DNA of 64,000 bases from a virus, in IMG/VR virus record IMGVR_UViG_3300036985_002246, positions 1 to 64,000 of that record. One strand, 5' to 3'. Positions 13,278 through 62,669 of this stretch are shown in pieces; position 1 is the first letter of the stretch, and each line of letters begins with the position of its first letter. The position numbers were made by a program, and so were the translations under genes. The notes beneath the pieces are model-generated. The model was given only the letters and a program-made list of their open reading frames with translations. It did not search any database and was not told the origin of the DNA.

Positions 13278-13306
13278 AAGCGAACGGGACGGTGCCTTTT
13301 ACACGA
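13278..13306 (-). promoter_or_regulatory. 19-bp-spaced phage promoter element
   Basis: TCGTG-TAAAAG ... 19 bases ... CGCTT reading leftward, then a GGGTGAGGAGA leader ending at the ATG at 13257. It overlaps the 3' end of the upstream gene (13299). Confidence 0.7.
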
Positions 13307-13739
13307 TCGGGGTCGAGATTTCGTCAGGCCACCCGCCGAGCACGGCTGGGGTCGGCTTGAACGTCGTGACGCACCCTCGGATCTTGCGGATCCGACAGAC
13401 ATGATCCGTCATTCCCGACTCGATCGGCTTGTCCCAACCGTTTCGACGGGCTTCCCCCACGGAACCAAACCCACCCAGCGCCTTCAGGACGTGGGCCATG
13501 AGCCAGCCCTCAGGTGCGGTGAAGATCGGAGCCCGGCGGGACTCCAGATCGAGGGTCGCGACGACGCTCTCACGCCACCGCTCGTCCACGATCTGGTCCC
13601 AACCCACGATCACCGTCGCGAAGTCAGCGACCTGGACCACCCGACCTGAAGCGTCCCAGACCCGGCACGTCTCACCGCTCTCCCCGACGACCTTCGGGAA
13701 GTCGAGCACAGTCTCTGCGAGATTGATCCGGGTCTTCAC
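13299..13739 (-). CDS. Hypothetical protein
   Basis: 146 aa from GTG 13739. Contains KALGGFGSVGEARRNGWDKP and a mixed alpha/beta pattern. No family recognised. The start codon lies only eight bases from the CGCTT box of the promoter element, with no Shine-Dalgarno, so a leaderless message is possible. Confidence 0.6.
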   Translation of the reverse strand: MKTRINLAETVLDFPKVVGESGETCRVWDASGRVVQVADFATVIVGWDQIVDERWRESVVATLDLESRRAPIFTAPEGWLMAHVLKALGGFGSVGEARRNGWDKPIESGMTDHVCRIRKIRGCVTTFKPTPAVLGGWPDEISTPIV

Positions 13740-13746
13740 GTCTAGG

Positions 13747-13775
13747 AAGCGGGTGGGGGACACCCGCTTTCACGA
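13747..13775 (-). promoter_or_regulatory. 19-bp-spaced phage promoter element
   Basis: TCGTG-AAAG ... CGCTT with 19 intervening bases. Unlike most copies it lacks the GGGTGAGGAGA leader, and the next start codon is eight bases away. The preceding bases read AGATTGA, as at the 39.8 and 60.5 kb copies. Confidence 0.65.
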
Positions 13776-13776
13776 T

Positions 13777-14328
13777 TCAATCTTCGGCGGTCAGCCAGTT
13801 GGCGACCGGCACGTCCGGCACTTCCGCCGAGACGTGGTTCTTCTTGGCCCTCTTGGCGGTCGGCTTGGCGACCACGGGCTCCACAGGAGCCTCCGGCTCG
13901 GGGGCGGGCAGTTCCATGCCCACGTCGGTCAGGAGGGCTGCACGGACCCGCACGGCTTCCGTAGCGACCCCTGCGGCGTGAGCCGCCTTCTCCTTGGTCG
14001 TCAGGGAGGGGTCCGTCAGCGTGCCCAGGGCGGTCAGGAAGACCTTCTGCCACCATGCGTCCCGCTCGAAGCCGAACGGCTGGGCAGACCGCTGGGCGGA
14101 GATCGTAGCGACCTGGGCTTGCCGGACCTCCAGGTCGGCGGAGGCGATCCTGGCTCGGGCCTCCAGAATGTACGCCTCAGCCTTCGACTTGATACTGGCA
14201 AGCTCAGCTTCGACCGCCGAGACTCGGGTGGCTGCCTCCAGCTTCGCGGCTGCGGCTTGAGCGGCGGCCTCCTCGGCGATCCGCTCGGCTTCCTCGGTGC
14301 GATTCTGCAAATCCTTGAAGGTCGTCAT
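13777..14328 (-). CDS. Coiled-coil protein
   Basis: 183 aa from ATG 14328 (TAAGGCAGG upstream). The first 90 residues are an Ala/Glu-rich long coiled coil (EEAERIAEEAAAQAAAAKLE). A globular helical part follows (WWQKVFLTALGTLTDPSLTTK), then a Pro/Glu-rich linker and basic tail. Probably a scaffold or structural helper; function unknown. Confidence 0.6.
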   Translation of the reverse strand: MTTFKDLQNRTEEAERIAEEAAAQAAAAKLEAATRVSAVEAELASIKSKAEAYILEARARIASADLEVRQAQVATISAQRSAQPFGFERDAWWQKVFLTALGTLTDPSLTTKEKAAHAAGVATEAVRVRAALLTDVGMELPAPEPEAPVEPVVAKPTAKRAKKNHVSAEVPDVPVANWLTAED

Positions 14329-14342
14329 GCCTGCCTTACGCC

Positions 14343-15590: not shown

Positions 15591-15592
15591 GG

Positions 15593-17758: not shown

Positions 17759-18877
17759 TCACTCGTAGTCTCGAACCGCCACGAAGGTTGCGATCCGGGG
17801 AAGTCCCTTGTTGGTGAACCCCTGGTGCTTGTAGGTGATCAGGGTTCCGAGTGCAGGGGGGCTCTCGCGCTCCTTGTCGGTGAACCCACCACCGACCTCG
17901 AACGTCTTGCCGTCGGCCATTTGCACGACGCACGCGCCCATGCGGCCCTTGTGCTTCCCGCGTCCCGGCTGGTAGCCGACCACGACCGCTTCGCCGTCCG
18001 TGAACGTCTTGACCTTGAGGCACGTCGTCGAGCGGTCCGTCACATACGGCGACCCGAACTGCCGGAGAATGAGTCCCTCGCCCCCCATGGCTTCCACGTC
18101 GGCGAGCATGAAGTCCAGGTGCTGCTGCCCGTGGCAGCGGACCTGTTCCAGCACGCGCCACGAGGTGAAGCCGAGCCTGTCGTAGGTGCCCTTGTAGAGG
18201 CCCTGGAGGTAGTCCATGCGTCGCTCGAACGAGCCAGTGAAGTGGGGCGCGTCGAACACGACGTACTGCATTTGCGCCCAATCAGCCTCAGTCGGCTCGT
18301 GCTTGCGGGCGATCCCTGACGCCTCCTGGAAGCGCCCACGTCCGAGCCAAAGCTCGCCGTCGAGAACGACCCTCTTCGGGAGCGAACGCTTGAAGCTCTC
18401 CGGGGCGTGGAAGGTGTTGCCGAGACGGGAAATGAACGCTTCCCCGTTCCAGTAGGCACGGACGCCGTCGAGCTTTTCACTCACCCACCAACCGGTCGGG
18501 TCGTCCTTCCCCTTCTCGAACGTCTCTGCGAGGAGGATCGGGGGGGCTGTGTCCTTACGGACTGCTCCGCCGACGGCGGTGCTGACCTTGCCCTTGGGCG
18601 TGAGGCGCACGGCGGGCTTCGATGGCACCCCAGGGAGGACCGGGGGGACGCTGTGGTCGATCATGCCTGCCCGAGTCAGTGCCGCCTTGGGCAGGCACTC
18701 GGGCTTGATATTCGCCTTGATATGCTTGCAAACACGGGTGTCGATCCCACCGCCCATGTTGCGCCAGGCCGGACACGAGCAGTCCACGACGCCGCTGATC
18801 TTGCGGATCGCGTAGGGCTTCCTGCCGCTGCCCTGGACGTACACGACGCCGCCTTCCATGAGGTGCTGTAGAGCCAT
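17759..18877 (-). CDS. ATP-dependent DNA ligase with SWIM-type zinc finger
   Basis: 372 aa from ATG 18877, ideal Shine-Dalgarno from the promoter leader. Residues 33-52 form a SWIM finger (CSCPAW ... CKH). The ligase core has the nucleotidyl-lysine motif EKLDGVRA (K135 adenylated), DGELWLGRG, an FDAPHFTG region, GEGLILRQ and KVKTFTDGEAVV, then a short OB-fold domain ending GLPRIATFVAV. It seals nicks in duplex DNA using ATP. The size fits minimal phage ligases apart from the unusual finger. It is the first gene of the long minus-strand operon. Confidence 0.9.
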   Translation of the reverse strand: MALQHLMEGGVVYVQGSGRKPYAIRKISGVVDCSCPAWRNMGGGIDTRVCKHIKANIKPECLPKAALTRAGMIDHSVPPVLPGVPSKPAVRLTPKGKVSTAVGGAVRKDTAPPILLAETFEKGKDDPTGWWVSEKLDGVRAYWNGEAFISRLGNTFHAPESFKRSLPKRVVLDGELWLGRGRFQEASGIARKHEPTEADWAQMQYVVFDAPHFTGSFERRMDYLQGLYKGTYDRLGFTSWRVLEQVRCHGQQHLDFMLADVEAMGGEGLILRQFGSPYVTDRSTTCLKVKTFTDGEAVVVGYQPGRGKHKGRMGACVVQMADGKTFEVGGGFTDKERESPPALGTLITYKHQGFTNKGLPRIATFVAVRDYE

Positions 18878-18901: not shown

Positions 18902-18930
18902 AAGCGATTGGGCTGAGGCCATTTTCACGA
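18902..18930 (-). promoter_or_regulatory. 19-bp-spaced phage promoter element
   Basis: TCGTG-AAAA ... CGCTT, then AGGTGTAAGGGAGA leading to the ligase start. Back-to-back with the + element at 18944, forming a divergent pair 13 bases apart. Confidence 0.75.
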
Positions 18931-18943: not shown

Positions 18944-18972
18944 ACGTGTAAAGAGCCCTCCCCCAATCGCTT
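18944..18972 (+). promoter_or_regulatory. 19-bp-spaced phage promoter element
   Basis: ACGTG-TAAAGAG ... CGCTT, then GAGGGGTGAGGAAGGA before the ATG at 18997. Confidence 0.75.
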
Positions 18973-18996: not shown

Positions 18997-19299
18997 ATGA
19001 AGCCCCACAATGTCGTCAACGCCCGCGAGATCTCTCGGGTCACCAAGCTGCTCGTCGCGGTCGCGGTCGAGTTCGGAATGCCGAACGCCTCGTGGTCGAT
19101 CTGCCCGCAACTGTGGTCCAACACCCACGAGAGGGCTGGTGAGATCGTGAAGGTGGAGTCGATCTCCTGGTCGGTGAGCGTCCACCCCGCCCCGCATGTG
19201 TGCTTCCAGGGGTACGGGACCACCGCCGACGGGGCGGTGGCTGACCTCCGGGCGAAGCTCGCCAAGCACATGGCTGAGACGAACGGGGTGGCAGCATAA
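18997..19299 (+). CDS. Hypothetical protein
   Basis: 100 aa. Contains REISRVTKLLVAVAVEFGMP and a beta-rich middle (SWSVSVHPAPHVCFQGYG), ending in a helix. Sole gene between two + promoter elements. Unknown function. Confidence 0.65.
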   Translation: MKPHNVVNAREISRVTKLLVAVAVEFGMPNASWSICPQLWSNTHERAGEIVKVESISWSVSVHPAPHVCFQGYGTTADGAVADLRAKLAKHMAETNGVAA

Positions 19300-19320: not shown

Positions 19321-19349
19321 TCGTGTAAAAGCCACCTCCCCACCCGCTT
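19321..19349 (+). promoter_or_regulatory. 19-bp-spaced phage promoter element
   Basis: TCGTG-TAAAAGCC ... CGCTT, then CATGGGTGTAAGGGAGA and GTG at 19373. Drives the + run to 21808. Confidence 0.75.
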
Positions 19350-19372: not shown

Positions 19373-19543
19373 GTGGAAAACACCGAGAGCCTCATTCACC
19401 GGATCGCAAACGCCCTGGCCTACGGCTGCACGGGCGCGGAGATCGCGGAGCGGTTCGCTTCCGAGGGTTCCCCTGAGGAGATCTGGCTCGCCATGGTGGC
19501 AGCCCGGATCCTGGTCAAGCACAGCGTGGGGGTCGTTTCGTGA
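19373..19543 (+). CDS. Small helical hypothetical protein
   Basis: 56 aa from GTG 19373 with AAGGGAG upstream. Product MENTESLIHRIANALAYGCT, then GAEIAERFASEGSPEEIWLA, looks like a compact helical bundle with a possible helix-turn-helix. Overlaps the next start (GTGA). Confidence 0.6.
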   Translation: MENTESLIHRIANALAYGCTGAEIAERFASEGSPEEIWLAMVAARILVKHSVGVVS

Positions 19544-22260: not shown

Positions 22261-22574
22261 GTCGCTCTCCTGGCGTAGATCTCCCGGTATCGCGGGACGC
22301 CGATCAGTTCGGGGATCGACATTGGGCCACCCTTGCCAGTGACCTCTGTGTCCGTGTACGGCAGAGGAAGCTGCTCCCACTTCGGGTCACGTTCCTCTAG
22401 GTTCGTCACGAACACGAAGTACCCCTCGCCGTCCTCGACCATGGCCTCGACCGCAGAGGTCATGGTCTTCAGCGCCTGCTCGCAGGCCGCACTGATCGCC
22501 TTGAGCCCCTCAGCGTCCGCCACAATGAAGGCGTCTGCATGGTGGTAGGGCTGAGCGTAGACGTGGACCTTCAT
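22257..22574 (-). CDS. Hypothetical protein
   Basis: 105 aa, ATGA overlap with the nucleotidyltransferase gene. An alpha/beta pattern (MKVHVYAQPYHHADAFIVAD) followed by a helix, then a beta pair. Unknown function; may act with its upstream neighbour. Confidence 0.6.
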   Translation of the reverse strand: MKVHVYAQPYHHADAFIVADAEGLKAISAACEQALKTMTSAVEAMVEDGEGYFVFVTNLEERDPKWEQLPLPYTDTEVTGKGGPMSIPELIGVPRYREIYARRAT

Positions 22575-23512
22575 GCCTGCTCCGACCAGAAGATCTCCTG
22601 GGCCTCGACGCAGAGAGCGTTGAGCTTCTCCATGTCGGGGTGGTCCGGGAGGGTCGAGGTTGCGTAGAGCCGGTCGATCTCCTCGTGGCCTCGCTCGGCT
22701 TGCTCGATCAGTTGGTCGTAGGACCAGACCCCCCGGCGGATCGCCAGGAGTTCCTCAGCGTCCGGGCGCTTCACTTTCACGCCCTTCCCAGCGAGTAGCT
22801 CCAGGCACATTCGGAGGAGCCTCACGAGGTGCATTGCGTGCTTCGTGTCGTAGCCGAACTGCGCTTCGAGCACAGCCCGCTTCTCGTTCCTCGAAGCCTT
22901 CCACGCCACATACTGGTTCCAGTGCTGGGTGGCCGAGCGGAACTGCTTCTCCAGTTGGACGTACTGCATGACGTTCGGGTCGATCTCGACCTCGTCACCC
23001 TCAGTCTCGGTGCTGAGGAGCTTGTCGAATGCGCCCATCATGTCGGGGGTGATCTTCATGGACCCCAAGCCGAACTCCGCCCTCTCCGGCTTGTGGTCCG
23101 GAGGCGAGAGCAGCCACTTGCGGTGGGTCTTGATCCGCTTGAGTTGGGCGACCGCGTACCCGGCGAACGTGTGCCGGGCCTTCTTCGAGAGGAAGAGGTC
23201 GCGGTGGTCGCGGAGCAGTGAACCAGAGCGTGTGATCTTCAGGACGTTCGATTCGTCCACGAACAGCACCTCGATCACGTTCGGGTTGCAGTCCGCCGCG
23301 AGCTTGCAGAACTTCTGCACGTTGTAGACAATGCTGTCGTTCGGGACGCTGCTCACCTGTTGCTCGAAGCCCTGGGCGAACCCCAGGACGATCTCCTTGG
23401 GAGCGACCGCGAATCCACGCACGTCCACGTCGGACTCCGGAAGGGAGGTCCCGTAGGCGTGGCTGCCATGCGTGGCGAGGAACACTGTGTGCGCTGCTAC
23501 GTCGAAGTCCAT
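22571..23512 (-). CDS. RlaP/YcgL-like predicted nucleotidyltransferase
   Basis: 313 aa. Near the N-terminus LATHGSHAYGTSLPESDVD then VRGF is the G(S)...DxD signature of the polymerase-beta-type nucleotidyltransferase superfamily, in the form of the RlaP/YcgL group. IEVLFVDESNVLKIT and the following all-helical region (FAGYAVAQLKRIKTHRKWLL, HLVRLLRMCLELL) also match. Family members are associated with RNA repair; the phage role is unknown. First gene after its promoter element. Confidence 0.75.
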   Translation of the reverse strand: MDFDVAAHTVFLATHGSHAYGTSLPESDVDVRGFAVAPKEIVLGFAQGFEQQVSSVPNDSIVYNVQKFCKLAADCNPNVIEVLFVDESNVLKITRSGSLLRDHRDLFLSKKARHTFAGYAVAQLKRIKTHRKWLLSPPDHKPERAEFGLGSMKITPDMMGAFDKLLSTETEGDEVEIDPNVMQYVQLEKQFRSATQHWNQYVAWKASRNEKRAVLEAQFGYDTKHAMHLVRLLRMCLELLAGKGVKVKRPDAEELLAIRRGVWSYDQLIEQAERGHEEIDRLYATSTLPDHPDMEKLNALCVEAQEIFWSEQA

Positions 23513-23531: not shown

Positions 23532-23560
23532 AAGCGATTGGGCTGGGGGCATTTACACGA
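23532..23560 (-). promoter_or_regulatory. 19-bp-spaced phage promoter element
   Basis: TCGTG-TAAATG ... CGCTT, then GAGGTGTAAGGGTCACC and the ATG at 23512. Confidence 0.75.
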
Positions 23561-28355: not shown

Positions 28356-28667
28356 TCAGCGGCGCTCTGCCATTTCCTCGTCGTGGCGCTCGCGGTCGCC
28401 CTCCATGTGGTCGAGCGCGAGGTCCACAAGCTCAGCGTGGTATTTCGCGACCCACGCTGTCAGCGCAGCACCGGTCAGCACGTCCATTGTGTAGTCCGGG
28501 GCGGGGTCCGCCACGGTGGCGGGCCAGATCTCAGCCTGGTCGGGATCGACGACGAGTTCCGGCTTCTCCCACTCGCAGTCCTCGAAGGTCACCACGAAGT
28601 TGACGAGCGCCTGGGTGCCGTCGGCAGCCTTGAACTCTGTCTCCCGGACTGTGTATTCGCGGTGCAT
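28356..28667 (-). CDS. Hypothetical protein
   Basis: 103 aa, first gene after a minus-strand promoter element, ATG after GGTGAGGGAAC. Acidic, with a beta-rich front (TQALVNFVVTFEDCEWEKPE). Unknown function. Confidence 0.6.
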   Translation of the reverse strand: MHREYTVRETEFKAADGTQALVNFVVTFEDCEWEKPELVVDPDQAEIWPATVADPAPDYTMDVLTGAALTAWVAKYHAELVDLALDHMEGDRERHDEEMAERR

Positions 28668-28683: not shown

Positions 28684-28712
28684 AAGCGGTTCGCGGGGGC
28701 TCCGATTCACGA
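28684..28712 (-). promoter_or_regulatory. 19-bp-spaced phage promoter element
   Basis: TCGTG-AATC ... CGCTT, then AGAAGGTGAGGGAAC and the ATG at 28667. Divergent with the element at 28725, 12 bases away. Confidence 0.7.
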
Positions 28713-28724
28713 TTCGACCCCCAA

Positions 28725-28753
28725 TCGTGAAAAGAGTCTCACCCCGTTCGCTT
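28725..28753 (+). promoter_or_regulatory. 19-bp-spaced phage promoter element
   Basis: TCGTG-AAAAGAG ... CGCTT, then AGGGGTAAAGGAGAGAGG. The next gene start is 180 bases away; a structured RNA lies between. Confidence 0.75.
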
Positions 28754-28769
28754 AGGGGTAAAGGAGAGA

Positions 28770-28927
28770 GGTTCGGGTCCAGAAAGCTGCGCTCGCTGAA
28801 AGTAGACGTTTGGCCACGTCGAAATCGCGGGTTGGCCAGTCCAGGTGTAGCTGGTTCGATTCCAGCGGGGTTGCACCCGTCCCAATGGTGGGAGTACACG
28901 GCGAGCGCAGCTTTCTGTACCCGAGCC
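28770..28927 (+). ncRNA. Structured leader RNA with tRNA-like T-arm
   Basis: A 17-bp perfect helix (CAGAAAGCTGCGCTCGC at 28780-28796 with 28901-28917) extends after one mismatch by nine further pairs, including one G-U (28770-28778 with 28919-28927). It encloses 104 bases. Inside are a GACGT/ACGTC hairpin (28805-28820), a perfect T-arm-like hairpin GCTGG-TTCGATT-CCAGC (28850-28866), a CGGGT/ACCCG pair (28828-28832 with 28875-28879) and a TCCCA/TGGGA hairpin (28880-28893). No acceptor stem, D-arm or anticodon arm of a normal tRNA can be drawn. It begins about where transcription from the promoter at 28725 should start. Confidence 0.65.
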
Positions 28928-28935
28928 AAACGGAA

Positions 28936-29280
28936 ATGAACAAGATCCAGGTGCCCCCCAAGTGGGGAATGCTCACGAGCGAAGGGAACCGTGCTCTCAG
29001 TCGGAAGGCCAAGACCGTCGCTCGCAAGATCGAGAAGCTCGCAGCCTCTGGAGAGGCAACCCCGGCGAACGTGAGCCAAGCACTAGTCACCTACCTGGGG
29101 TCGTGGCTCCGCTCTCAGGAGCACCGGACCACTCACGAGGCGGGGGACGCCGCCGTCCGAGATTGCGTAGGGGACTTCCACGACAAGCTCTGGAACCACG
29201 TCTTCGGGGGTAACGGAGACACCATGTGGGACGCACACCTCGCAGCCGCCTACCGTCGCCGAGAATCCGAGGCCAAGTGA
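28936..29280 (+). CDS. Hypothetical protein downstream of structured RNA
   Basis: 114 aa from ATG 28936, nine bases after the long helix ends. Basic N-terminal helix (NRALSRKAKTVARKIEKLA), then VSQALVTYLGSWLRSQEHRT. Translation may depend on the upstream structure. Unknown function. Confidence 0.6.
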   Translation: MNKIQVPPKWGMLTSEGNRALSRKAKTVARKIEKLAASGEATPANVSQALVTYLGSWLRSQEHRTTHEAGDAAVRDCVGDFHDKLWNHVFGGNGDTMWDAHLAAAYRRRESEAK

Positions 29281-30220: not shown

Positions 30221-30249
30221 TCATGTAAAAGCCGCCCCCTCATTCGCTT
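30221..30249 (+). promoter_or_regulatory. 19-bp-spaced phage promoter element
   Basis: TCATG-TAAAAGCC ... CGCTT, then AGGGTGAGGAGACAG and ATG 30274. Starts right after the previous gene's stop. Confidence 0.7.
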
Positions 30250-30273: not shown

Positions 30274-30669
30274 ATGAACACCCAGACCACGACCCCCACG
30301 AAATCCTTCCGCGTCGGCGACATTGTCCAGTTCGGGCGCACCCACGGCGAGAAGACGCGAGGCCGGATCCTCCGGATCTCCGCCAAGTCCCTCTCGATCG
30401 AGACGATCGAGGAGCGCGGCAACGGTCGCGGGTCGGCGGTCGGGAAAAAGTGGCGCGTTCACCCGTCGCTCGTCCAGGCGGTCTCGCCGAACTCGGCCAG
30501 CCCGAGCCCCTCCAACTTCGGGCTCTCGCCCTACGCGACCCTTCGGGCGAACGTGGACTCGGCCCAGGACAACTTCCTCACGAAGGCTCTCGACTTCGGT
30601 CTGGGCGCTCCGGTGACGGTCGAAGCCTTCAACAACCTCAAGGCTGCTCTGGCAGCCATTGCCGCCTAA
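30274..30669 (+). CDS. Hypothetical protein with SH3/KOW-like front
   Basis: 131 aa. KSFRVGDIVQFGRTHGEKTR then GRILRISAKSLSIETI resembles a KOW-type beta barrel. The C-terminal part is helical (FLTKALDFGLGAPVTVEAFN). Own promoter. Unknown function. Its stop overlaps the stop of the convergent gene. Confidence 0.6.
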   Translation: MNTQTTTPTKSFRVGDIVQFGRTHGEKTRGRILRISAKSLSIETIEERGNGRGSAVGKKWRVHPSLVQAVSPNSASPSPSNFGLSPYATLRANVDSAQDNFLTKALDFGLGAPVTVEAFNNLKAALAAIAA

Positions 30670-32668: not shown

Positions 32669-32697
32669 TCGTGAAAAGCAGTCCGCCCCACCCGCTT
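32669..32697 (+). promoter_or_regulatory. 19-bp-spaced phage promoter element (feeds small RNA)
   Basis: TCGTG-AAAAGCAG ... CGCTT, then AGAGGGTGAGGCGG. No long gene follows on this strand; an intrinsic terminator lies about 95 bases downstream. Confidence 0.75.
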
Positions 32698-32703: not shown

Positions 32704-32816
32704 TGAGGCGGTTGGAGTGGCAAGAAGAGCCGGAGCGACAGGAAGCCGAGGCCAAGCGCCAGCCGAGGGACCCCAAACAAGGGGACCCTGAGGGCACCCT
32801 ACGGGGTGCCCTTTTT
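32704..32816 (+). ncRNA. Putative ~113-nt phage small RNA
   Basis: The transcript expected from the element at 32669 would contain a GGGaCCCC-AAACAA-GGGGaCCC hairpin (32767-32788, one A-A mismatch) and end at the terminator at 32792-32816. It can encode at most a short peptide (a 24-codon GTG frame, MARRAGATGSRGQ...). Regulatory RNA is the simpler reading. It is antisense to the last 18 bases of the gene 32799-33056. Confidence 0.55.
32792..32816 (+). terminator. Rho-independent terminator with UACG tetraloop
   Basis: GGGCACCC-TACG-GGGTGCCC, a perfect 8-bp stem closed as C(UACG)G, an extra-stable tetraloop, followed by TTTTT. Direction is +. The stop codon of the convergent minus gene lies in the loop region. 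Confidence 0.88.
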
Positions 32817-33056
32817 CGTGGACCTCTCCAGGTACATATCCCCGAGCCCGTCGAGCCCGTCGAGGACAGCGTTGATGTCCCTCTTGGTGACGCTCGTGGC
32901 GTCGTGCAGGAGGACCACCAGCGCCCGGCGATTCATGCCAGAGGCAGTGAACTCCTTGGAGAACTTGTCGATCCGACGCACGGCCTCTGCGAGCTTGCGT
33001 GCGTCCTCCGAGGTGTACTTGGGGTCTTCGTACTTGTCGGCCTTGTCAGTGCTCAT
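32799..33056 (-). CDS. Small helical hypothetical protein
   Basis: 85 aa from ATG 33056. DARKLAEAVRRIDKFSKEFT ... RRALVVLLHDATSVTKRDIN is helical. ATGA overlap with the gene upstream. Unknown function. Confidence 0.6.
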   Translation of the reverse strand: MSTDKADKYEDPKYTSEDARKLAEAVRRIDKFSKEFTASGMNRRALVVLLHDATSVTKRDINAVLDGLDGLGDMYLERSTKKGTP

Positions 33057-34142: not shown

Positions 34143-34697
34143 TCAGGTTGCGACCTCTTCTGAGGGCTGGGTTCGCAGGAGCGGGTAGCCGTTCTGCCAG
34201 TCGTCGAGGAGCGACGACCAAAACTTGGTGCGCAGAGCCCGCGACCAGATCTGATCTCGGGTCGCCACGTTCAACCCGAAGTAGCTGTAGCCGTCGGGGA
34301 TCTCGCCGACGATCCGGGTCTTGAGGATTGGGCCTCGCGGCTTGGCGTCGCGGCGTCGCCAGGTCAAGTCCACGAGGCACTCGCCGTCAAGGACCAGCCA
34401 CCCGTGGTTCACCGGCAGCAGCCCCGTCGTCGCGTACCCCTCGAAGTACTCCAGACGGTGGTCCGTGTCTGAGCGCAGGAGCGTCTCCTGGGAGTTCCCG
34501 TAGCACTGCTGCATTGGGAAGCCGCCCCCGCGAGTGATCACCCGGAGGTACTGGAGTTGCTCCTTCGAGAGCGTGCGGGACTCCATTTCCCGACCGTTCC
34601 TCAGGATGTACTCGTACAGGCTCTTGTAGGCGTACCCAGGCAGGGTGCCTTGGACCCTGCCGACCATTTCTGTCATCACGCTCAGGTACTTGCGCAT
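34143..34697 (-). CDS. Putative Cys-His-Asp (transglutaminase-like) protein
   Basis: 184 aa. QCYGNSQETLL, YFEGYATTGLLPVNHGWLV and GECLVDLTWRR line up a cysteine, histidine and aspartate in the order of a papain/transglutaminase-type active site. I recognise this pattern from a family of uncharacterised phage and bacterial proteins. Whether it is an active enzyme is unknown. It follows directly behind a promoter element. Confidence 0.55.
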   Translation of the reverse strand: MRKYLSVMTEMVGRVQGTLPGYAYKSLYEYILRNGREMESRTLSKEQLQYLRVITRGGGFPMQQCYGNSQETLLRSDTDHRLEYFEGYATTGLLPVNHGWLVLDGECLVDLTWRRRDAKPRGPILKTRIVGEIPDGYSYFGLNVATRDQIWSRALRTKFWSSLLDDWQNGYPLLRTQPSEEVAT

Positions 34698-34706: not shown

Positions 34707-34735
34707 AAGCGATTGGGGCCATGGCTTTTACACGT
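34707..34735 (-). promoter_or_regulatory. 19-bp-spaced phage promoter element
   Basis: ACGTG-TAAAAGCC ... CGCTT, then AGGGGGTGA and ATG 34697 only ten bases from the CGCTT box, so the 5' leader must be very short. Confidence 0.7.
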
Positions 34736-36390: not shown

Positions 36391-36587
36391 GCGCTCTCCA
36401 GTGTCTTTCGTGACTCTTCGGCAAGTCTCTCAGCTTCGTAGTAGGCGTCCCGGCAAGGATCCCCACTACAGAACACGAGCCCACTCGTCGTGTAGAACGT
36501 CCTGCTGAGGGCCTTCCCGCATTGGGGGCAGTGGCTACAGGGCTTTTTCTCGTTGGCGTCAGACGCTGACTTCGCCTTGGTGGTCAC
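36387..36587 (-). CDS. Small zinc-binding phage protein
   Basis: 66 aa from GTG overlapping the upstream stop. CSHCPQCGKALSRTFYTT then VFCSGDPCRDAYY is a four-plus cysteine zinc-binding motif, and a helix follows. Unknown function. Confidence 0.6.
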   Translation of the reverse strand: MTTKAKSASDANEKKPCSHCPQCGKALSRTFYTTSGLVFCSGDPCRDAYYEAERLAEESRKTLESA

Positions 36588-36811: not shown

Positions 36812-36840
36812 AAGCGGTCGGGGAGCCGCCCTTTACACGA
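36812..36840 (-). promoter_or_regulatory. 19-bp-spaced phage promoter element
   Basis: TCGTG-TAAAGGG ... CGCTT, then CAGAGTGAGAGGGACACC and ATG 36790. Confidence 0.7.
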
Positions 36841-38462: not shown

Positions 38463-38491
38463 AAGCGGTCGGGGGTTGTGTGAATTCACGA
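38463..38491 (-). promoter_or_regulatory. 19-bp-spaced phage promoter element
   Basis: TCGTG-AATTC ... CGCTT, then CAGATTTGGAGACGATAGAC and ATG 38442. Confidence 0.7.
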
Positions 38492-39807: not shown

Positions 39808-39836
39808 AAGCGATCGGGGAGGTTACCTTTTCACGT
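39808..39836 (-). promoter_or_regulatory. 19-bp-spaced phage promoter element
   Basis: ACGTG-AAAAGG ... CGCTT, then CCGAGGTGTAAGGGGAC. A (T)-tract CTCAATCTTTTTTTC at 39841-39855 lies just upstream of the ACGTG box, reading as an A-tract on this strand. Divergent with the element at 39930. Confidence 0.72.
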
Positions 39837-39929: not shown

Positions 39930-39958
39930 TCGTGAAAAGCGGTCCGGGCCGAACGCTT
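39930..39958 (+). promoter_or_regulatory. 19-bp-spaced phage promoter element
   Basis: TCGTG-AAAAGCGG ... CGCTT, then GAGGGGTGTAAGGGAGACGAGC and ATG 39981. Confidence 0.75.
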
Positions 39959-42632: not shown

Positions 42633-42674
42633 CAGGCAGGGCCGGAAGACCAATCCGGCCCTGCCTGTTCTCTT
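42633..42674 (+). terminator. Strong hairpin terminator after the vWA gene
   Basis: A 14-bp perfect stem (CAGGCAGGGCCGGA with TCCGGCCCTGCCTG, loop AGACCAA) followed by TTCTCTT. Long stem, weak T-run. Confidence 0.75.
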
Positions 42675-42689
42675 CGGGTAGAGTCCAGC

Positions 42690-43181
42690 GTGCGTGTATG
42701 CCCTGACTGCGGTCTGTCCTATCAAGACCCGAAGACCACTTCGGAGAAGAACGCTCCGTTCGTCTGCACCGCCTGTCTGAAGCAGGCGTCTCCGCGTCCC
42801 CCAGGTGGGTGGCCGATCGAGGCTCGCTGGATCAGCCAGGCGAAGGGCCGGGGCGTCTTTGCCACCCGCGAGATTCTTCGGGGTGACCTGATCGAGCGGT
42901 GCTGGGTCATGCCCCTGCCCGCCGACGAGTCCAAGCAGACCCTCACGATCCCCACGGTCAACCGCTACCTCTTCCCGTGGACCGACGGGCAGCGGGCAAT
43001 ACTCTCGGGGGAGGGGCTCCTCTACAACTTCGATTCGGTGGAAGCCACCAAGAAGGCCCCCAACTCGGAGTGTGCCCTTCGTCGAGGGATCTCCGCCGTC
43101 GAGTTCCGCGCCCTGAGGGACATTCGCGAGGGTGAGGAGATCACCTGGAACTACAAGAAGGCCATGGTGCGGCGTCGCTAG
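42690..43181 (+). CDS. SET-domain protein with N-terminal zinc ribbon
   Basis: 163 aa from GTG 42690. CPDCGLSYQD ... FVCTACL is a zinc ribbon. The SET part reads AKGRGVFATREILRGDLIER ... GLLYNFDS ... ALRDIREGEEITWNYKKAM. The usual NHS(C).PN is changed to YNFDSVEATKK-PN, so activity is uncertain. Unlike the SET protein at 5428 it carries its own ribbon. Target unknown. Confidence 0.75.
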   Translation: MRVCPDCGLSYQDPKTTSEKNAPFVCTACLKQASPRPPGGWPIEARWISQAKGRGVFATREILRGDLIERCWVMPLPADESKQTLTIPTVNRYLFPWTDGQRAILSGEGLLYNFDSVEATKKAPNSECALRRGISAVEFRALRDIREGEEITWNYKKAMVRRR

Positions 43182-44320: not shown

Positions 44321-45898
44321 GTGCCCAAGTCCAACCCCGTCCTGAGCCAGCCTCGTGTGTGGCGGCTCCTTTCGAGCGGGGTCCATGAGGTCGCTCAGGT
44401 TGTCTCCCGGACGTTCGGCCCACAGGGCGGGAAGGTCATGGTCCAGAAGGCGGGCTCCGTCCTGGTCACGACCGACGGGGCGGCCCTCACCCGAGAGAGT
44501 CAGCTTGCTGGGGGCAAGCGCCTGGGGGCGACTCTCGTTCGGTCGGCGGCTCTCAAGACTGAGGAGCAGGTCGGGGACGGGACTTCCACGACGGTGCTCC
44601 TGGCGGACGCGATCGTCCGCCAGATCGGGGCTCGGGTCGGCACCTACGATTGGGACCCGGTTCGGGTGGTCGCTGAGGTCCGGGCAGCACACGAGAGCGC
44701 AGAGCAAGCGATCCGCCAGTCGTCTCGCCCTGCGGACCGGGCGAGCTTGGACCGGGTCGCGCTCATGGCCTCCCACGAGGACTCGCTCATTGCCTCGAAG
44801 GTCGTCGAGGCTGTTCTTGCCGTCGGTGAAGAAGGCTCGGTCGTGATCTCCCCCTACGAAGGGACGGGGATCGTGCTCGAACAGAAGGAGGGGCTCTACC
44901 TCAATCAGGGGTGGGCCTCGTCCGGAATGGCTTCCGAGGGCAGCCTGGAGCGGGAAATGGACGGGCCGCTCGTGGCCGTGTTCCGGCACATTCTTCGCCA
45001 GGTCGCGGACGTTGCCCCGGCCATGGAGCAGGCGAGTCAGTGGCCTGGCCGAGGTCTCGTCGTGTTCGCGCCCCGAGTCCAGGGGGACGCCCTGAAGACC
45101 CTCCTGGTCAACAACAAGAACGGGGTGCTGCCGTGCGCTGCCGTCGAGTACGCGGGGTCACCGGCTGACCTGGGGGATTGGCTCGACGACCTCACGACGG
45201 TCACGAACGCCACCCTCGTGGACCCGGACACGGGAATGGACCCAGCGAAGTTCGAGGCCCCGTGGCTGGGCTACGCTCGGCGGGTCACCCTCACGAGGGA
45301 CCACACGCTCGTGATCTCGTACCTCGACGAGGACATTCTCGCCAAGATCGACCAGCGGGCCGCCAACCTCCGGGCTCGGGCCGAGAGTTCTTCGTACCCC
45401 TTCGAGCGGGACCGGCTGACTGAGCGGGCCTCTGCGCTCGACGGGGGGCTCTGCACACTGAGGGTGGGTGGTCTGACGAAGCAGGAGGGTCAGGACCGGC
45501 GCTCCCGCGTCGAGGACTCCTTGCGGGCCGTGCAGACGTGCTTGCGGGGCGGGGTGGTCCCAGGAGCCGGGCTGGCGTTCTTCCGAGCGGCTCTGTGGCT
45601 CCCTCAGGACGAGGGTGGGGCGATCCTTGGGGAGGCCCTCCGATCGATCCTGGGGACACTGGCAACCAGAGCCGGGGTTGAGCCTGCGGTGGTGGTCGCC
45701 CAAGGGTTCGAGGTCGCTCTGTATGACCCGGACGGTTGGTTCGGGTACGACCCGCTCCTGGGAGATTGGCGTGACCTCTGGGCTGAGCCCAGGGTCGTGG
45801 ACCCGACCGAGGTTGCGCTAGCGGCCCTGCGCAACGCTGTCTCCGTGGCGTGTCAGATCGCCCTGTGCGGAGGGGTGCTCCCAATCTCAAGCCGCTAG
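44321..45898 (+). CDS. GroEL/Cpn60-like phage chaperonin
   Basis: 525 aa from GTG 44321. Equatorial-domain motifs are recognisable: TFGPQGGKVMVQKAGSVLVT then TDGAALTRE, and GDGTSTTVLLADAIV (ATP-binding GDGTTTA). A later RVEDSLRAVQTCLRGGVVPG then AGLAFFRAA is the GroEL RVEDAL...EGIVPGGG segment. The apical part (GLYLNQGWASSGMASEGSLE) is divergent. It folds proteins in an ATP-dependent ring; phage versions can work without GroES. It precedes the tail/lysis block. Confidence 0.88.
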   Translation: MPKSNPVLSQPRVWRLLSSGVHEVAQVVSRTFGPQGGKVMVQKAGSVLVTTDGAALTRESQLAGGKRLGATLVRSAALKTEEQVGDGTSTTVLLADAIVRQIGARVGTYDWDPVRVVAEVRAAHESAEQAIRQSSRPADRASLDRVALMASHEDSLIASKVVEAVLAVGEEGSVVISPYEGTGIVLEQKEGLYLNQGWASSGMASEGSLEREMDGPLVAVFRHILRQVADVAPAMEQASQWPGRGLVVFAPRVQGDALKTLLVNNKNGVLPCAAVEYAGSPADLGDWLDDLTTVTNATLVDPDTGMDPAKFEAPWLGYARRVTLTRDHTLVISYLDEDILAKIDQRAANLRARAESSSYPFERDRLTERASALDGGLCTLRVGGLTKQEGQDRRSRVEDSLRAVQTCLRGGVVPGAGLAFFRAALWLPQDEGGAILGEALRSILGTLATRAGVEPAVVVAQGFEVALYDPDGWFGYDPLLGDWRDLWAEPRVVDPTEVALAALRNAVSVACQIALCGGVLPISSR

Positions 45899-45919: not shown

Positions 45920-46216
45920 TTGAGACTTACCTTGGAGACGCCTGAGTCCAAACGGAAGTATCAGGTCATTGCTGAGAATGTGGACGCAGCCGCAGACCAG
46001 ATACTCGAAGCAGCGAAGACCCGCGACCCCGTCAGGGTCAAGGCGGTCCTCATGTATTGGTTCAGCATTGTCTACGACGAAGGCATGGACCGTATCGAGC
46101 AGGTTGAGCAGGAGATTGAGCTTCTCCAGCAGATCGTCCTCAGGCTCAAGTCGAAGAGCACTCCCACCCGACCCCCACCGTCCATGCTGCCGCCCGTAGG
46201 TCCTGAAGATGAGTGA
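45920..46216 (+). CDS. Small coiled-coil protein
   Basis: 98 aa if begun at TTG 45920; the start is uncertain. Helices (NVDAAADQILEAAKTRDPVR, MDRIEQVEQEIELLQQIVLR) end in a Pro-rich tail. Overlaps the tail-fibre gene start by eight bases. Unknown function. Confidence 0.45.
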   Translation: MRLTLETPESKRKYQVIAENVDAAADQILEAAKTRDPVRVKAVLMYWFSIVYDEGMDRIEQVEQEIELLQQIVLRLKSKSTPTRPPPSMLPPVGPEDE

Positions 46217-47882
46217 TACCTTCGTCTCGGCGATCGGAGCCACCCCGGAGAGCGCCCGAACTCAGATTGGGGCGATCGGTCCGTCGTCGGAGGTGGTGCC
46301 TCTGGTCGGCCAGGTGCTGACCTGGAACGGCGTGGTCTGGGTGCCAGCAGGTCCTGGTGGTAGCTCGGTGACCACCCAGGCCAACTTCACGGTCCGACCT
46401 GCGGGTCCGTTCGGATCGGGGGTGTACCCGGACTGGGCGTCCATGTACCTCGACCTGTCCCTCTCGGCACCGGGGGTCAAGTGGATCTTGATCGACAGTC
46501 CTGGCGTGCCGGTCCAAGTCCCGGTGGGCACCTACAACCTCTCGGGGTGTGTCCTCTCCGGAGTCTGGGAGGGTGCCTTGCCCTCGCTCCTGACGACCCA
46601 GACCGGGGCGATTCTCACCGAGCTTCATGCGGTCGCGAACCGGCTTCAGATCGTCAACGAGGGGACGACCTCCCCGATCACGATCTCGTCCCTGACTAGC
46701 TCGACGCTCGCGGTCCAGTTCGAGGCTCAGGTCCGGTCGGCTGTTGGAGCCGCCCCCTTCTTCAATCTCCTGAGCGGGTCAAGCCTGAAGGTCTACGGCC
46801 TGGAGGGCGGGCAGGTCGGCGACATTGGCCTGCCGGTCGTCAAGCTCGGCACCAGCGCAGTCCTGAGTGCGCTGCTCTACAACCAGTCAGGCTTCGCACC
46901 TGACTGCGTGGACCCGACGAGCCAGGCAAGTTCTTCGGTCACGGTCGCTGCGGACGCCGGGTCGTTCGACGAGACACTCACCCAGGTCGGGTATACGGGC
47001 ACCTACGCCCTGACGCAGATCGACCTGGCCTCAGGGGTCGGCTACGACGACCTCGCGGTAGCCCCGCCTCTTGGGGTGACAGACGTTCAGGGTGCGCTCG
47101 ACGCGCTCAAGATTGCGAGCGTCGGGGTCAACGGAAGCTCGGCGATCTGGCGAGGCGTGGGTGCTCCTGTGGGAGCCGGGATCTTCAACACCTGGGCGGA
47201 CCTGTTCGCCTGGGCGCAGTCGGCTCCGGGCTACAAGAAGGTCTACCTCGACTCGACGTTCGGCCCGCTCGTCGTGGACTCCGGGGTGTGGTCGTTCACC
47301 GACCCAGTGGAGTTCGTGGGCTCGCCCCTGCCGCCCCGGACGGCAGTGACCTTCAACGAGGCGAGCTTCCACAACACCTGGAAGTGGTCCAACGTCCAGT
47401 TCCTCGTCCTCAACACGGTCGGCCCTCCGTTCGGAGCGTTCCCCGAGACGATCGAGTTCGACAACTGCGAGGTCGTCCTGAGCGGTGGTGCCCAGCCGTT
47501 CATTCGGAGCCTCACGGCTGCCCTCGAAATCACGTTCACTCGCATGGCCGTCGCCCCGACGACGCAGCTTGTCTTCGACCTCCAGCCGACGGCGGCTCCT
47601 GGGATCATTCGGCTCAAGGACGGAACCACGGTAGCCTTCAACAGCTTCTCGACGGCGATCCCGACGACGCTGACGATCTACGTGGACTCCTCCTGCACCT
47701 ACCTGACCCAGTTCTTCGTCTTCGGGACGCTGATCCTGATCCAATCGAGCGCGGCGAGCGCCGTGGCCTACGTCCCAGGGAACGCCGCGAACTGGGTCGC
47801 TCCCGCCCCTACCAACGTGAGCGAAGCCCTCGACCGGCTGGCAGCAGCCAACGTCGCCAACGGCTTCGGCCCTGTCCCCTGA
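46209..47882 (+). CDS. Tail-fibre-like protein with repeated modules
   Basis: 557 aa, Ser/Thr/Gly/Val-rich and predicted mostly beta. Two copies of a module are visible: FGSGVYPDWASMYLDLSLSA then PGVKWILID near residue 72, and VGAGIFNTWADLFAWAQSAP then GYKKVYLDS near residue 320. GVTDVQGALDALKIA and NVSEALDRLAAA are the short oligomerisation-type repeats of phage fibres. It lies just before the endolysin. Probably host recognition. Confidence 0.7.
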   Translation: MSDTFVSAIGATPESARTQIGAIGPSSEVVPLVGQVLTWNGVVWVPAGPGGSSVTTQANFTVRPAGPFGSGVYPDWASMYLDLSLSAPGVKWILIDSPGVPVQVPVGTYNLSGCVLSGVWEGALPSLLTTQTGAILTELHAVANRLQIVNEGTTSPITISSLTSSTLAVQFEAQVRSAVGAAPFFNLLSGSSLKVYGLEGGQVGDIGLPVVKLGTSAVLSALLYNQSGFAPDCVDPTSQASSSVTVAADAGSFDETLTQVGYTGTYALTQIDLASGVGYDDLAVAPPLGVTDVQGALDALKIASVGVNGSSAIWRGVGAPVGAGIFNTWADLFAWAQSAPGYKKVYLDSTFGPLVVDSGVWSFTDPVEFVGSPLPPRTAVTFNEASFHNTWKWSNVQFLVLNTVGPPFGAFPETIEFDNCEVVLSGGAQPFIRSLTAALEITFTRMAVAPTTQLVFDLQPTAAPGIIRLKDGTTVAFNSFSTAIPTTLTIYVDSSCTYLTQFFVFGTLILIQSSAASAVAYVPGNAANWVAPAPTNVSEALDRLAAANVANGFGPVP

Positions 47883-60133: not shown

Positions 60134-60135
60134 GA

Positions 60136-60285
60136 TCAGACCTCCGAGATTGAACGAGCCCGCTGCTGCGAGCGGTTGCCCTGTCGCTTGCTGCGACCGT
60201 CCTTGTGCGGCCCGCCCCCGGTGCGGAGCCTGACCGACTCCGCCAGCCAGGATCTCCGCGCCACCTTCTCTGACTTGCTCTTCAC
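60136..60285 (-). CDS. Small basic hypothetical protein
   Basis: 49 aa from GTG 60285 overlapping the upstream stop. Very basic (RKSKSEKVARR-type start, KRQGNRSQQRARS). Fills the gap between two genes. Unknown function. Confidence 0.5.
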   Translation of the reverse strand: MKSKSEKVARRSWLAESVRLRTGGGPHKDGRSKRQGNRSQQRARSISEV

Positions 60286-60491
60286 GACGCCCCCACCGAG
60301 CCACCGAGCGAGGCCAGGAGCGCCTGAGCCGCCTCCATGGTGAGGCCCGCGCCGGTCCGAGTGACCTCCGTCGCGAGGACGGTGACACCGTTCGCGGCCA
60401 CCACGACCTTGTCCTCGTAGACGTTGAAGCCACCGTTCAGGAGGTCGTGTGCAATGAACCGCGAGAAGGTCTTGGAGGTCTTGGTCGTCAT
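60282..60491 (-). CDS. Small hypothetical protein, head of long minus operon
   Basis: 69 aa from ATG 60491 (GAGGGAGACGAAC leader). MTTKTSKTFSRFIAHDLLNG, beta-rich. Follows a promoter element and could head the transcript running through ThyX and HD genes to 52563. Confidence 0.6.
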   Translation of the reverse strand: MTTKTSKTFSRFIAHDLLNGGFNVYEDKVVVAANGVTVLATEVTRTGAGLTMEAAQALLASLGGSVGAS

Positions 60492-60511
60492 GTTCGTCTC
60501 CCTCACCTAGT

Positions 60512-60540
60512 AAGCGATTGGGGAGACCCCTTTTACACCA
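60512..60540 (-). promoter_or_regulatory. 19-bp-spaced phage promoter element
   Basis: TGGTG-TAAAAGGG ... CGCTT, then ACTAGGTGAGGGAGACGAAC and ATG 60491. On this strand an A-tract copy lies ten bases upstream (60550). Only copy with TGGTG as first box. Confidence 0.68.
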
Positions 60541-60549
60541 TTCGACCCA

Positions 60550-60591: not shown

Positions 60592-60620
60592 TCGTGAAAA
60601 GCCCCTCCCCCCAATCGCTT
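60592..60620 (+). promoter_or_regulatory. 19-bp-spaced phage promoter element
   Basis: TCGTG-AAAAGCCC ... CGCTT, then GGGTGGTGAGGAGACGAAC and ATG 60640; the leader nearly mirrors that of the divergent partner. Confidence 0.75.
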
Positions 60621-60639
60621 GGGTGGTGAGGAGACGAAC

Positions 60640-61431
60640 ATGACCACCAACGCCAAGTCCGTGAAGCTCGCTGTCCACCTGTCCGATATGGTCGAAGAGG
60701 CGAACGGTTCGCCCCGCTTCGTCGGTTTCGCCACCCGCCTCGCGGGTGAGGTCCAGGGGGCGGGCGCGAACAAGCTCCGCCGTGGCGACCACGTCATGGA
60801 GTACACGCTCCTGACCGGCTTCTCGTACACGAACATGGTCCAGCGTTCGCTGGACACCCTCACGGCGGCCATGCAGTCGCCCACCTTCGTCGCGGACATG
60901 GTCGCCGCCCTCGCCGCCGACGGCAAGGTGGACGAGCAGAGCGGCGCGGCGATCACCGCGACCGACGTGATCGACGCCTGCACGGGTACAGCGCGTGGCC
61001 GCAAGGGTCTGATCACCGCGTACAGCGAGACCCTCGCGGGCACCAACGAGAGCACCTCGGAGCACGTCTACGAGACGCTCTCGGTGGACGGCTCGAACGT
61101 GGCGGGCTGCAAGGTCTACACGGGCACGGGCAACCCCGCCGACCCGAAGGCTCCCGTCCCCGGCACGGTCTACCTCGCGGGGATCGTGATCGCCAGCAAC
61201 TGCGTCGAGAAGTCCCCCAACGGTGACAAGCTCCCGAGCAAGAGCGGAGCGGTCATGGTCGCCAAGTCTTTCCTGGAGCGCACCCTCGACCTCCCGGCGT
61301 GCCGCTACCGCACCTTCCGCCTCCTGCCTGGTGAGGCAGTCTCGCTCAAGTGCGGCTCGACCTCCTTCCACGCGGCTGAGGGCGGCTCGGTCAAGCCCGG
61401 TGTCGTGGCGATCGAGGCGCTGGTCGCATGA
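60640..61431 (+). CDS. Conserved-looking phage protein of unknown function
   Basis: 263 aa from ATG 60640. Thr/Ala/Gly-rich, alternating helices and strands (FVGFATRLAGEVQGAGANKL, TVYLAGIVIASNCVEKSPNG, RTFRLLPGEAVSLKCGSTSF). Preceded by a promoter element with a near-ideal leader, so it may be strongly expressed. No family assigned. Confidence 0.6.
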   Translation: MTTNAKSVKLAVHLSDMVEEANGSPRFVGFATRLAGEVQGAGANKLRRGDHVMEYTLLTGFSYTNMVQRSLDTLTAAMQSPTFVADMVAALAADGKVDEQSGAAITATDVIDACTGTARGRKGLITAYSETLAGTNESTSEHVYETLSVDGSNVAGCKVYTGTGNPADPKAPVPGTVYLAGIVIASNCVEKSPNGDKLPSKSGAVMVAKSFLERTLDLPACRYRTFRLLPGEAVSLKCGSTSFHAAEGGSVKPGVVAIEALVA

Positions 61432-61652
61432 GCCGGAAGGCTACCGTCACAGGGGCCGGGTACGTCAGCCCGGCCCTGAGCGACGCCCTGGCGGGTCTCC
61501 TCGCTGCTCAGGGGTTCGAGGTCTTCACGCAGGCCGAGACTGATTTCATTGCGGCGTGGGCGCGCAAGCACCACCCGCGTCGTAAGTACCTGACGGACGC
61601 TCAGTTCGCTCAGGCACGCGCCGAGTACGCCGCAACGAAGGGAACACCATGA
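61428..61652 (+). CDS. Small hypothetical protein
   Basis: 74 aa, ATGA overlap. Helical (ALSDALAGLLAAQGFEVFTQ, TDFIAAWARKHHPRR). Unknown function. Confidence 0.6.
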   Translation: MSRKATVTGAGYVSPALSDALAGLLAAQGFEVFTQAETDFIAAWARKHHPRRKYLTDAQFAQARAEYAATKGTP

Positions 61653-62140
61653 TCGTCGCCACGCTCCCCTACGAGGAAATGCTCCGCCGACACCCGAAGG
61701 AGGTCGCGGAGATCGTCTCCAAGCTCCGCAAGGGCAAGTCCAAGGTCCGTGACGCTGACCCAGCGACGATCACCTGGACCTACGAAGCCTGCGTCCTGAT
61801 CGAGGGCAGCGGTTCGTTCGCTGACCTTCTCAGCGGAAAGATGGAACGCGCCGAGCGCAAGTGGAACGCCATGACCCTCGACGAGAAGGTCGCCGACACG
61901 GTGCGGCGGACGAGCACGGGGATCTGCGCCAGGCTCGGACGCTGGTGGGGCGGGAGCGACGCCATTCCCAATCCCCCGGAGGTCGCAGAGAACACCCGAG
62001 CGGGCCTCATGGCCCAGGCTGCCGAGCAGGCTCGTGCGGACGCCCTGACCCCGGAAGAGCGCCGTCGAGAGACGGAAGACCTTCTGCGGCAGCTTGGGGC
62101 AGACCCAGGGTTCGCTGCGATCCTCTTGGAGGAACCATGA
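61649..62140 (+). CDS. Helical hypothetical protein
   Basis: 163 aa, ATGA overlap. All-helical (EVAEIVSKLRKGKSKVRDAD, GLMAQAAEQARADALTPEER). Unknown function. Confidence 0.6.
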   Translation: MIVATLPYEEMLRRHPKEVAEIVSKLRKGKSKVRDADPATITWTYEACVLIEGSGSFADLLSGKMERAERKWNAMTLDEKVADTVRRTSTGICARLGRWWGGSDAIPNPPEVAENTRAGLMAQAAEQARADALTPEERRRETEDLLRQLGADPGFAAILLEEP

Positions 62141-62382
62141 AGTTCGTCTGCCAGATCCTCGGCCCGATCGACACGATCCCGAGAGGGCTCCCGGTCCCTG
62201 TGGAGGCTCGGAGCTACGAGAGCGCAGCACAGGTCCACGTCGCGTGTGACGCACCACGCCTCGCCCTGCTCCACCAGGAAGTCCTCGTCGCCGTCCGCCG
62301 GTCCGACGGCTCTGGACGGGCCTCGAAGCTGTTCATGGTCAGCGTCAACCTCACCTCGAAGCCCTGGGTGCCCAGTGTCTAA
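62137..62382 (+). CDS. Small hypothetical protein
   Basis: 81 aa from ATG 62137 with GGAGG upstream. Beta-rich (LALLHQEVLVAVRRSDGSGR). Unknown function. Confidence 0.6.
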   Translation: MKFVCQILGPIDTIPRGLPVPVEARSYESAAQVHVACDAPRLALLHQEVLVAVRRSDGSGRASKLFMVSVNLTSKPWVPSV

Positions 62383-62641
62383 CGGCCCGCGTGTCTTCTG
62401 GTGCCAGGTGGTCAGACCGGAAGTGAGCCACAAGCCCTGGCTCAACACTTCGGAAATGAAGGTCTCCGCACGGGGTCCAAAGTCGGCGGCTGAGTCCTTC
62501 GTCTCCTTCGACTACAGCGAGGCGATCCACTTCAGGCCGGGAGCCGTCATGGTGCGGGTCCGGGAGAGAGGGTCCGAGAGCCCACCCAGGTTCTTCTCGA
62601 TCACCACAACCGTCAAGGCGAAGGAGATTCGTCAGCCCTAA
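62375..62641 (+). CDS. Small hypothetical protein
   Basis: 88 aa from GTG 62375 overlapping the previous gene. Beta pattern (FWCQVVRPEVSHKPWLNTSE, GAVMVRVRERGSESPPRFFS). Unknown function; its stop TAA directly abuts the next promoter element. Confidence 0.55.
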   Translation: MSNGPRVFWCQVVRPEVSHKPWLNTSEMKVSARGPKSAAESFVSFDYSEAIHFRPGAVMVRVRERGSESPPRFFSITTTVKAKEIRQP

Positions 62642-62669
62642 CGTGTAAAAGCCCCGAGCCCACCCGCTT
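62641..62669 (+). promoter_or_regulatory. 19-bp-spaced phage promoter element
   Basis: ACGTG-TAAAAGCC ... CGCTT, then AGAGGGTGCAGGGTGG; ATG 62715. Confidence 0.72.

Follow-up and report, generated by a model that had tools for sequence, protein, structure and literature searches.

Huge phages that have no RNA polymerase of their own must redirect that of the host, by means that are mostly unknown. Such phages often encode sigma factors thought to work with the host enzyme (PMC13282480, PMC7824862). In Salmonella phage 7-11, the sigma factor SaPh711_gp47 directs the host core polymerase at eight late promoters with the consensus GTAAtg-(16)-aCTA and a transcription start 6-9 bases away; the phiEco32 sigma factor gp36 has a promoter class of its own, consisting of the single element tAATGTAtA, and has no region 4 homology; and two phiEco32-type phages encode sigma factors that are only 15% identical, with promoters that differ (PMC8948821). 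Here we describe a two-part element, TCGTG and CGCTT separated by 19 bases, in a 64,000-base stretch of uncultured phage DNA (hereafter the window), which comprises bases 1-64,000 of virus record IMGVR_UViG_3300036985_002246 (G000; 199,475 bases in full). We think it likely that 23 copies of this element in the record form one promoter class, read by the host core polymerase together with a phage sigma factor encoded at 73,099-74,037 (minus strand), outside the window. Of known systems, the phage 7-11 sigma factor comes closest and, as there, we find a multi-copy, two-part element with fixed spacing alongside a phage protein with regions 2 and 4, the latter with weak profile support.

A two-part element with fixed spacing precedes genes in the window

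An earlier note on this DNA had listed 18 sites on both strands of the window, and all 18 carry the element where that note placed them (Table 1). The element can be written AA-TCGTG[T/A]AAA-N15-CGCTT-N4-GGTG, and more roughly as the consensus GAA-TCGTG[T/A]AAAAG-N8-CCCC[A/G]NYCGCTT-N4-GGTG[A/T]RGGGAGA. The A directly 5′ of the element, T4-G5, A7 and CGCTT are found at 18/18 sites, and TCG at positions 1-3, AA at 8-9, CCC at 19-21 and the GGTG after N4 at 14-17 of them. The earlier note had suggested comparisons with shuffled sequence, with gene interiors, and with the whole genome and relatives, all of which speak for a genuine class. Allowing at most one mismatch, TCGTG-N19-CGCTT has 32 matches, compared with 5.7 expected in dinucleotide shuffles (shuffle maximum 12), and the tighter form [TA][CG][GA]TG[TA]AA-N16-CGCTT occurs at 16 sites in the window, compared with 0.017 expected from 300 Markov simulations. 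By the calls of our own simple gene caller, genes cover ~91% of the window and intergenic DNA makes up 8.9%; none of the 16 pattern sites lies inside a gene, two of them overlapping the end of a neighbouring gene by 1 and 8 bases.

We scanned the full record with a weight matrix trained on the element class. It singled out 23 sites, scoring 32.6-61.5 bits, with the next match at just 1.4 bits; the 23 comprise the 18 sites in the window, with the highest score at 19321 and the lowest at 38463, and five further sites at 161.5-168.6 kb. A strict pattern gave 17 matches in the genome and its reversed control gave 0. The same dyad was the top signal when gene upstream regions were searched, without supervision, for paired 4-mers (CGTG-N20-GCTT; 18 occurrences, 0.42 expected). 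A scan of all viral contigs for ATCGTG-N-AAA-N15-CGCTT found at least 115 stretches, nearly all single-copy among the matches listed; we set these aside because a 14-base pattern is expected by chance in a collection so large. The distance from element to start codon, reported earlier as 8-25 bases at most sites, needed correction: measured from CGCTT, it is 7-24 bases at 14 sites, and 45 and 72 bases at the sites at 62641 and 39808, respectively.

The element is likely to be a promoter

Taken together, the data support the earlier view of a phage promoter class with −35- and −10-like halves and rigid spacing, for which a sigma factor is a better explanation than a single-subunit polymerase. 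A search with PF00940, aimed at a T7-type single-subunit RNA polymerase, found nothing in 8 records, and the controls were equally silent. We propose TCGTG[T/A]AAA as the −35 element, with the −10 element formed by CGCTT where it stands within CCC-N3-CGCTT. From the observed sites, spacing and placement we infer that transcription would begin ~6-9 bases past CGCTT, within or just after GGTG, and that the resulting short leaders would carry the ribosome-binding site. The reader would be the host core RNA polymerase with a phage-encoded, strongly diverged sigma factor that has regions 2 and 4, and the class would turn on accessory and nucleic-acid-metabolism genes, not the replication/virion block.

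The element could also be read as an operator, or as a start-associated RNA or translation signal, given that conservation extends into GGTG and the ribosome-binding site, and that a repressor could use scattered copies. However, the element is asymmetric and oriented toward the downstream unit. Moreover, at four places in the window where neighbouring genes diverge, each direction has a separate copy to itself, an arrangement to be expected if the copies are promoters but not if they form a shared operator. A predicted short RNA follows the site at 32669, complete with a terminator-like hairpin and TTTTT that end ~115 bases past the predicted start; a terminator scanner did not list this hairpin, so the terminator rests on sequence and fold. 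In G012, another of the huge-phage records, the start codon lies exactly 9 bases after CCGT at 7/14 sites. This spacing, that of leaderless messages, is expected if transcription begins at the ATG, and it indirectly supports the promoter reading. We consider an operator, or an RNA or translation signal, exceedingly improbable.

Related huge phages carry private elements of the same layout

We reached relatives of the phage through the RlaP-like protein of the window; the protein at 46209-47882, used as a query, found none. The records used may be fragments. The same class is present in two relatives, G001 (252 kb), with 27 copies of CGTGTAA-N16-CGTTAC at no more than one mismatch, and G002 (248 kb), with seven one-mismatch matches, most of them AGTGTAA-N16-CGTTAC; the backwards control gave 0 in each. 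When all distances between GTG[T/A]AA and CG[C/T]T were counted, a sharp peak fell at the identical distance in G000, G001 and G002, with a small shoulder one base longer in G001 and a lesser peak four bases shorter in G002. A fourth phage, the 485-kb uncultured phage record LR745208.1, shares 55 G000 proteins with G001 and G002, one of them 93-99% identical; the stretches of it that were read first contain ~28 copies of GATTTCRCTAAAA...CCGATAGGGTATTGAGG. In each of these four phages, the phage's own version of the element was the top signal of the paired 4-mer search.

Private bipartite elements with the same layout but other letters include CGTGTAAT...CGTTAC, CTAAAA...CCGATAGG, GTTACA...CCGT and GGTAAC...GTAG. 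In our judgement there is an even chance that one sigma factor resembling those of the extracytoplasmic function (ECF) type was passed down, along with a bipartite promoter class, through a wide lineage of huge phages, and that the two diverged together into private pairs. On this joint-divergence reading the common layout, which we hold with the same balance of belief and doubt, would often include an upstream CGATT-like block, a −35 element that commonly contains TAA, 15-19 intervening bases and a −10 element built on CG or GTA, with leaderless messages in at least one case.

A diverged sigma-like protein is the better candidate reader

The earlier note had named a sigma-like gene at 316 as the possible reader. 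The gene stands, as a weak region 2 match encoded in the window (Table 1), and it is the only G000 match to sigma region 2 (PF04542). Its role as reader is less likely: searches of G001 and G002, both of which carry the class, found nothing that matches the protein, and nor did those of the rest of G001-G009 (LR745208.1 was outside this search). Because it has no match in related phages with the class, gene 316 is probably the wrong reader, and we regard it as very unlikely that its product recognises the element.

The predicted product of 73,099-74,037 is, on sequence and modelled structure, a better candidate. It is a divergent sigma-factor-like protein with regions 2 and 4 in an ECF-like layout and, across its family, a long variable N-terminal extension. 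The protein was first noticed through a weak region-4 match of its G002 orthologue; orthologues are present in G001, G002 and LR745208.1, and thus in all four closest phages with G000 included, and its profile has matches in 18 of the 28 huge-phage records searched. A search of a phage collection with the G000 protein itself returned LR745208.1 only, and Pfam gave no match to it. Matches to TIGR02937 (sigma70-ECF) span both regions in G000 (E 0.0057) and G001 (E 0.0041), and were found in 6/11 members of the family. The AlphaFold model has two confident helical domains, at residues 97-187 and 237-305. Its 50 best fold matches in the PDB are all sigma subunits or models containing one, among them the ECF factors sigma-L (probability 0.99) and sigma-E (0.94), and a phage structure library returned annotated ECF-type sigma factors. 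We favour this protein because of its orthologues, the two-region matches, the model and the sigma fold matches.

No copy of the element lies upstream of the 73,099-74,037 gene itself. The sequence there includes a host-type promoter-like TTTACA-18-TATCCT, a mere consensus match. The divergent neighbour of the gene (G000:74258-75568) is kept in all four phages and has a helix-turn-helix-like stretch, identified by eye; its protein has no significant family match.

Neither Rpb2_6 nor Rpb1_2 matched G000, G001 or G002, and we rejected a multisubunit phage polymerase as reader; nor did any multisubunit polymerase family match the sigma-bearing phages searched, which points to the host core polymerase as the likely partner. 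In G003, G004 and G005 there are Rpb2_6 and Rpb1_2 matches (G003:91406-94018, G004:177741-180359 and G005:84126-86741) inside open frames of ~2,070 residues, which suggests a fused beta/beta-prime phage RNA polymerase.

With no polymerase genes detected in the phage, a host alternative sigma factor of the ECF type might also read the class, and the −10 element CGTTAC of G001 and G002 is one that we take to resemble ECF −10 elements. However, the consensus is particular to each phage whereas the layout stays the same, a pattern more easily explained by a phage factor that diverges with its sites. We see only a slim chance that the reader is a host factor.

Sigma-bearing phages tend to carry a bipartite element

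We compared the presence of the 73,099-74,037 family with that of an element in stretches of 17 distinct phages with clear sigma status, plus G019, using the paired 4-mer search and setting each top dyad against the highest value from ten shuffles. The dyad exceeded that value in every one of the 12 distinct phages in the sample that bear the sigma gene, and a private bipartite element was plain in at least 10 of the 12; in G027 the margin over shuffles was narrow, with copies clear by eye. The 5 sampled phages without the sigma gene had no such element, save for a palindromic signal in G006. Fisher's test gave 0.0016-0.0025 for the rows as sampled, with G017 and G030 both counted; this value is descriptive only, since G017 and G030 represent a single phage and the sampled phages are relatives of one another.

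Several observations weigh against the 73,099-74,037 protein as reader, or weaken the case for it. Over the model as a whole, the fold matches score modestly (best E 0.003, TM ~0.2). Sequence scores to sigma families fall under curated cut-offs, that of TIGR02937 being missed with 16.3 bits vs 42.9 and all E-values being far weaker than it asks; a PDB sequence profile search with the sigma alignment returned no sigma factor, only weak unrelated matches. In G024 and G026, the top dyad may reflect a common promoter of the host type, or else a ribosome-binding signal. G019 carries the element, and the sigma gene was not detected in it; the G019 record ends ~14 kb past the tandem region-4 gene described below, whereas in the related G018 the sigma gene lies ~30 kb past that gene, so the G019 record stops short of where G018 would place it. 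Co-occurrence partly reflects descent, since the sigma-bearing phages share ancestry, and it cannot separate the two candidate proteins, because most of the phages were chosen for the tandem region-4 protein.

That second candidate, a protein with two helix-turn-helix domains encoded at 111,778-112,401, could read the class as a sigma-like factor or a co-activator. It has 207 residues, with a region 4 (PF08281) match in G000, G001 and G002 and a strong match to Sigma70_r4 (E 6e-9). It is conserved in 45 large-phage contigs as well as in the four closest phages, and G019 has a copy. It was our first candidate. We demoted it on two grounds: its AlphaFold model consists of a pair of helix-turn-helix domains and has nothing corresponding to region 2, leaving no known means to open the −10 element, and its recognition helices are nearly invariant between G000 and LR745208.1 though their −35 elements differ. 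Its gene also sits within the replication/late block, which is without the element. We judge it unlikely that the class is read through this protein, and retain the 73,099-74,037 protein as the probable reader. A NusG/UpxY-like KOW protein (G000:111151-111756) lies between a DnaX-like (clamp loader) gene and the tandem region-4 gene, and this three-gene cassette is conserved in LR745208.1, G001 and G002; the DnaX-like protein of LR745208.1 (L245:20816-22702) is seemingly split by an intein-like insertion.

The late block lacks the element

No site lies between 62.7 and 161.5 kb, a gap that holds terminase-like, replication and other core genes. The earlier observation that the structural block is without the class thus holds for the late block (64-160 kb), which must be transcribed some other way. 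The second promoter class that this had seemed to imply did not emerge: a motif search of the late block found no dyad above background and no bipartite element comparable to the first. An GGTAGAGT-like 8-mer stands before some late genes in G000 and G001 (for example, at window positions 42670-42690) and might, weakly, belong to another promoter type. GCGTAAGG occurs in the window at 1364, 12799, 14334, 24632, 24822, 25232, 44307 and 52978, mostly just 5′ of start codons, and is also present in G001, G002 and G012. We set it aside as a second promoter class since it more closely resembles a ribosome-binding signal, which it probably is.

Features of the window

The 176-base segment at 28760-28935 folds far better than shuffles, with no Rfam match and no tRNA match; it includes a hairpin that resembles the T-arm of tRNA. 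Genes elsewhere in the window encode a Cpn60-like chaperonin (44321-45898), a SET-domain protein (42690-43181), and an AAA ATPase (38506-39735) with a VWA/CobT-like partner (39981-42626).

Table 1 Probable promoter elements, predicted RNAs and the sigma-like gene of the window. Distances are from CGCTT to the start codon
Feature	Coordinates	Strand	Downstream unit or remark
Second, record-specific sigma-like protein (region 2)	316..1122	+	Pfam Sigma70_r2, E 9e-5
Promoter element	13278..13306	-	Gene 13024-13257 (-); 20 bases
Promoter element	13747..13775	-	Gene 13299-13739 (-); GTG after 7 bases, possibly leaderless
Promoter element	18902..18930	-	DNA ligase gene 17759-18877 (-); divergent pair with 18944
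Promoter element	18944..18972	+	Gene 18997-19299 (+)
Promoter element	19321..19349	+	Gene 19373-19543 (+); 61.5 bits
Promoter element	23532..23560	-	RlaP-like nucleotidyltransferase gene 22571-23512 (-)
Promoter element	28684..28712	-	Gene 28356-28667 (-); divergent pair with 28725
Promoter element	28725..28753	+	182-base structured leader, then gene 28936-29280 (+)
Predicted long-hairpin leader RNA	28760..28935	+	3′ of the 28725 promoter; fold -91.7 kcal/mol, z -7.4
Promoter element, TCATG variant	30221..30249	+	Gene 30274-30669 (+)
Promoter element	32669..32697	+	Short RNA; next 7 kb without a called + strand gene
Predicted ~115-base small RNA or 24-aa reading frame	32705..32822	+	Ends in hairpin and T run; z -3.6
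Promoter element	34707..34735	-	Gene 34143-34697 (-); ATG after 9 bases
Promoter element	36812..36840	-	Gene 36584-36790 (-)
Promoter element	38463..38491	-	Gene 37357-38442 (-); weakest, 32.6 bits
Promoter element	39808..39836	-	AAA-ATPase gene 38506-39735 (-); 72 bases
Promoter element	39930..39958	+	VWA-domain gene 39981-42626 (+); divergent pair with 39808
Promoter element, TGGTG variant	60512..60540	-	Gene 60282-60491 (-); divergent pair with 60592
Promoter element	60592..60620	+	Gene 60640-61431 (+)
Promoter element	62641..62669	+	Gene 62715-63254 (+); 45 bases

Discussion

If the proposed pairing is correct, a transcription factor, its promoters and the genes that they control would have been named for uncultured phages from sequence alone, and a sigma factor would have been overlooked by standard Pfam annotation. 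The set of relatives allows a test of how specificity shifts jointly in a sigma factor and its dozens of promoters, a general question, and is a possible source of matched sigma-promoter pairs for laboratory use. Were joint divergence also true, these phages would hold a naturally occurring set of sigma-promoter pairs, mutually orthogonal and all derived from a common ancestor. We found no description of this sigma family or its promoters in the literature covered, which left out most subscription journals.

Several known systems invite comparison. The multisubunit polymerases of AR9 and phiKZ likewise serve phage-specific promoter classes in huge phages, but the Rpb2_6 and Rpb1_2 matches that we observed are in G003-G005, with none in G000-G002. 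In T4 late transcription, which involves gp55, gp33 and the sliding clamp, there is a parallel in that the tandem region-4 gene here is likewise near a clamp-loader gene; T4 late promoters, however, consist of a single −10 element, whereas the class described here is bipartite and not late. Bacterial ECF sigma factors have the region 2 and region 4 layout in common with the 73,099-74,037 protein, whose model matches sigma-L and sigma-E, and two of the relatives have a −10 element with CGTT; the phage protein differs in scoring under the family cut-offs and in its long variable N-terminal extension, and the usual ECF −35 element is of the GGAAC type, from which the −35 element here differs. phiEco32 resembles the present case in that a phage-encoded sigma factor has a promoter class to itself, but that promoter is a single element and that factor lacks region 4. 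With phage 7-11 the order of the two parts is the same, and the spacing is nearly the same as in the GTAA-N16-CGTT of G001. Unlike in 7-11, where 8 promoters serve late genes, the record studied here has its 23 sites before accessory and nucleic-acid genes, and none in the late block.

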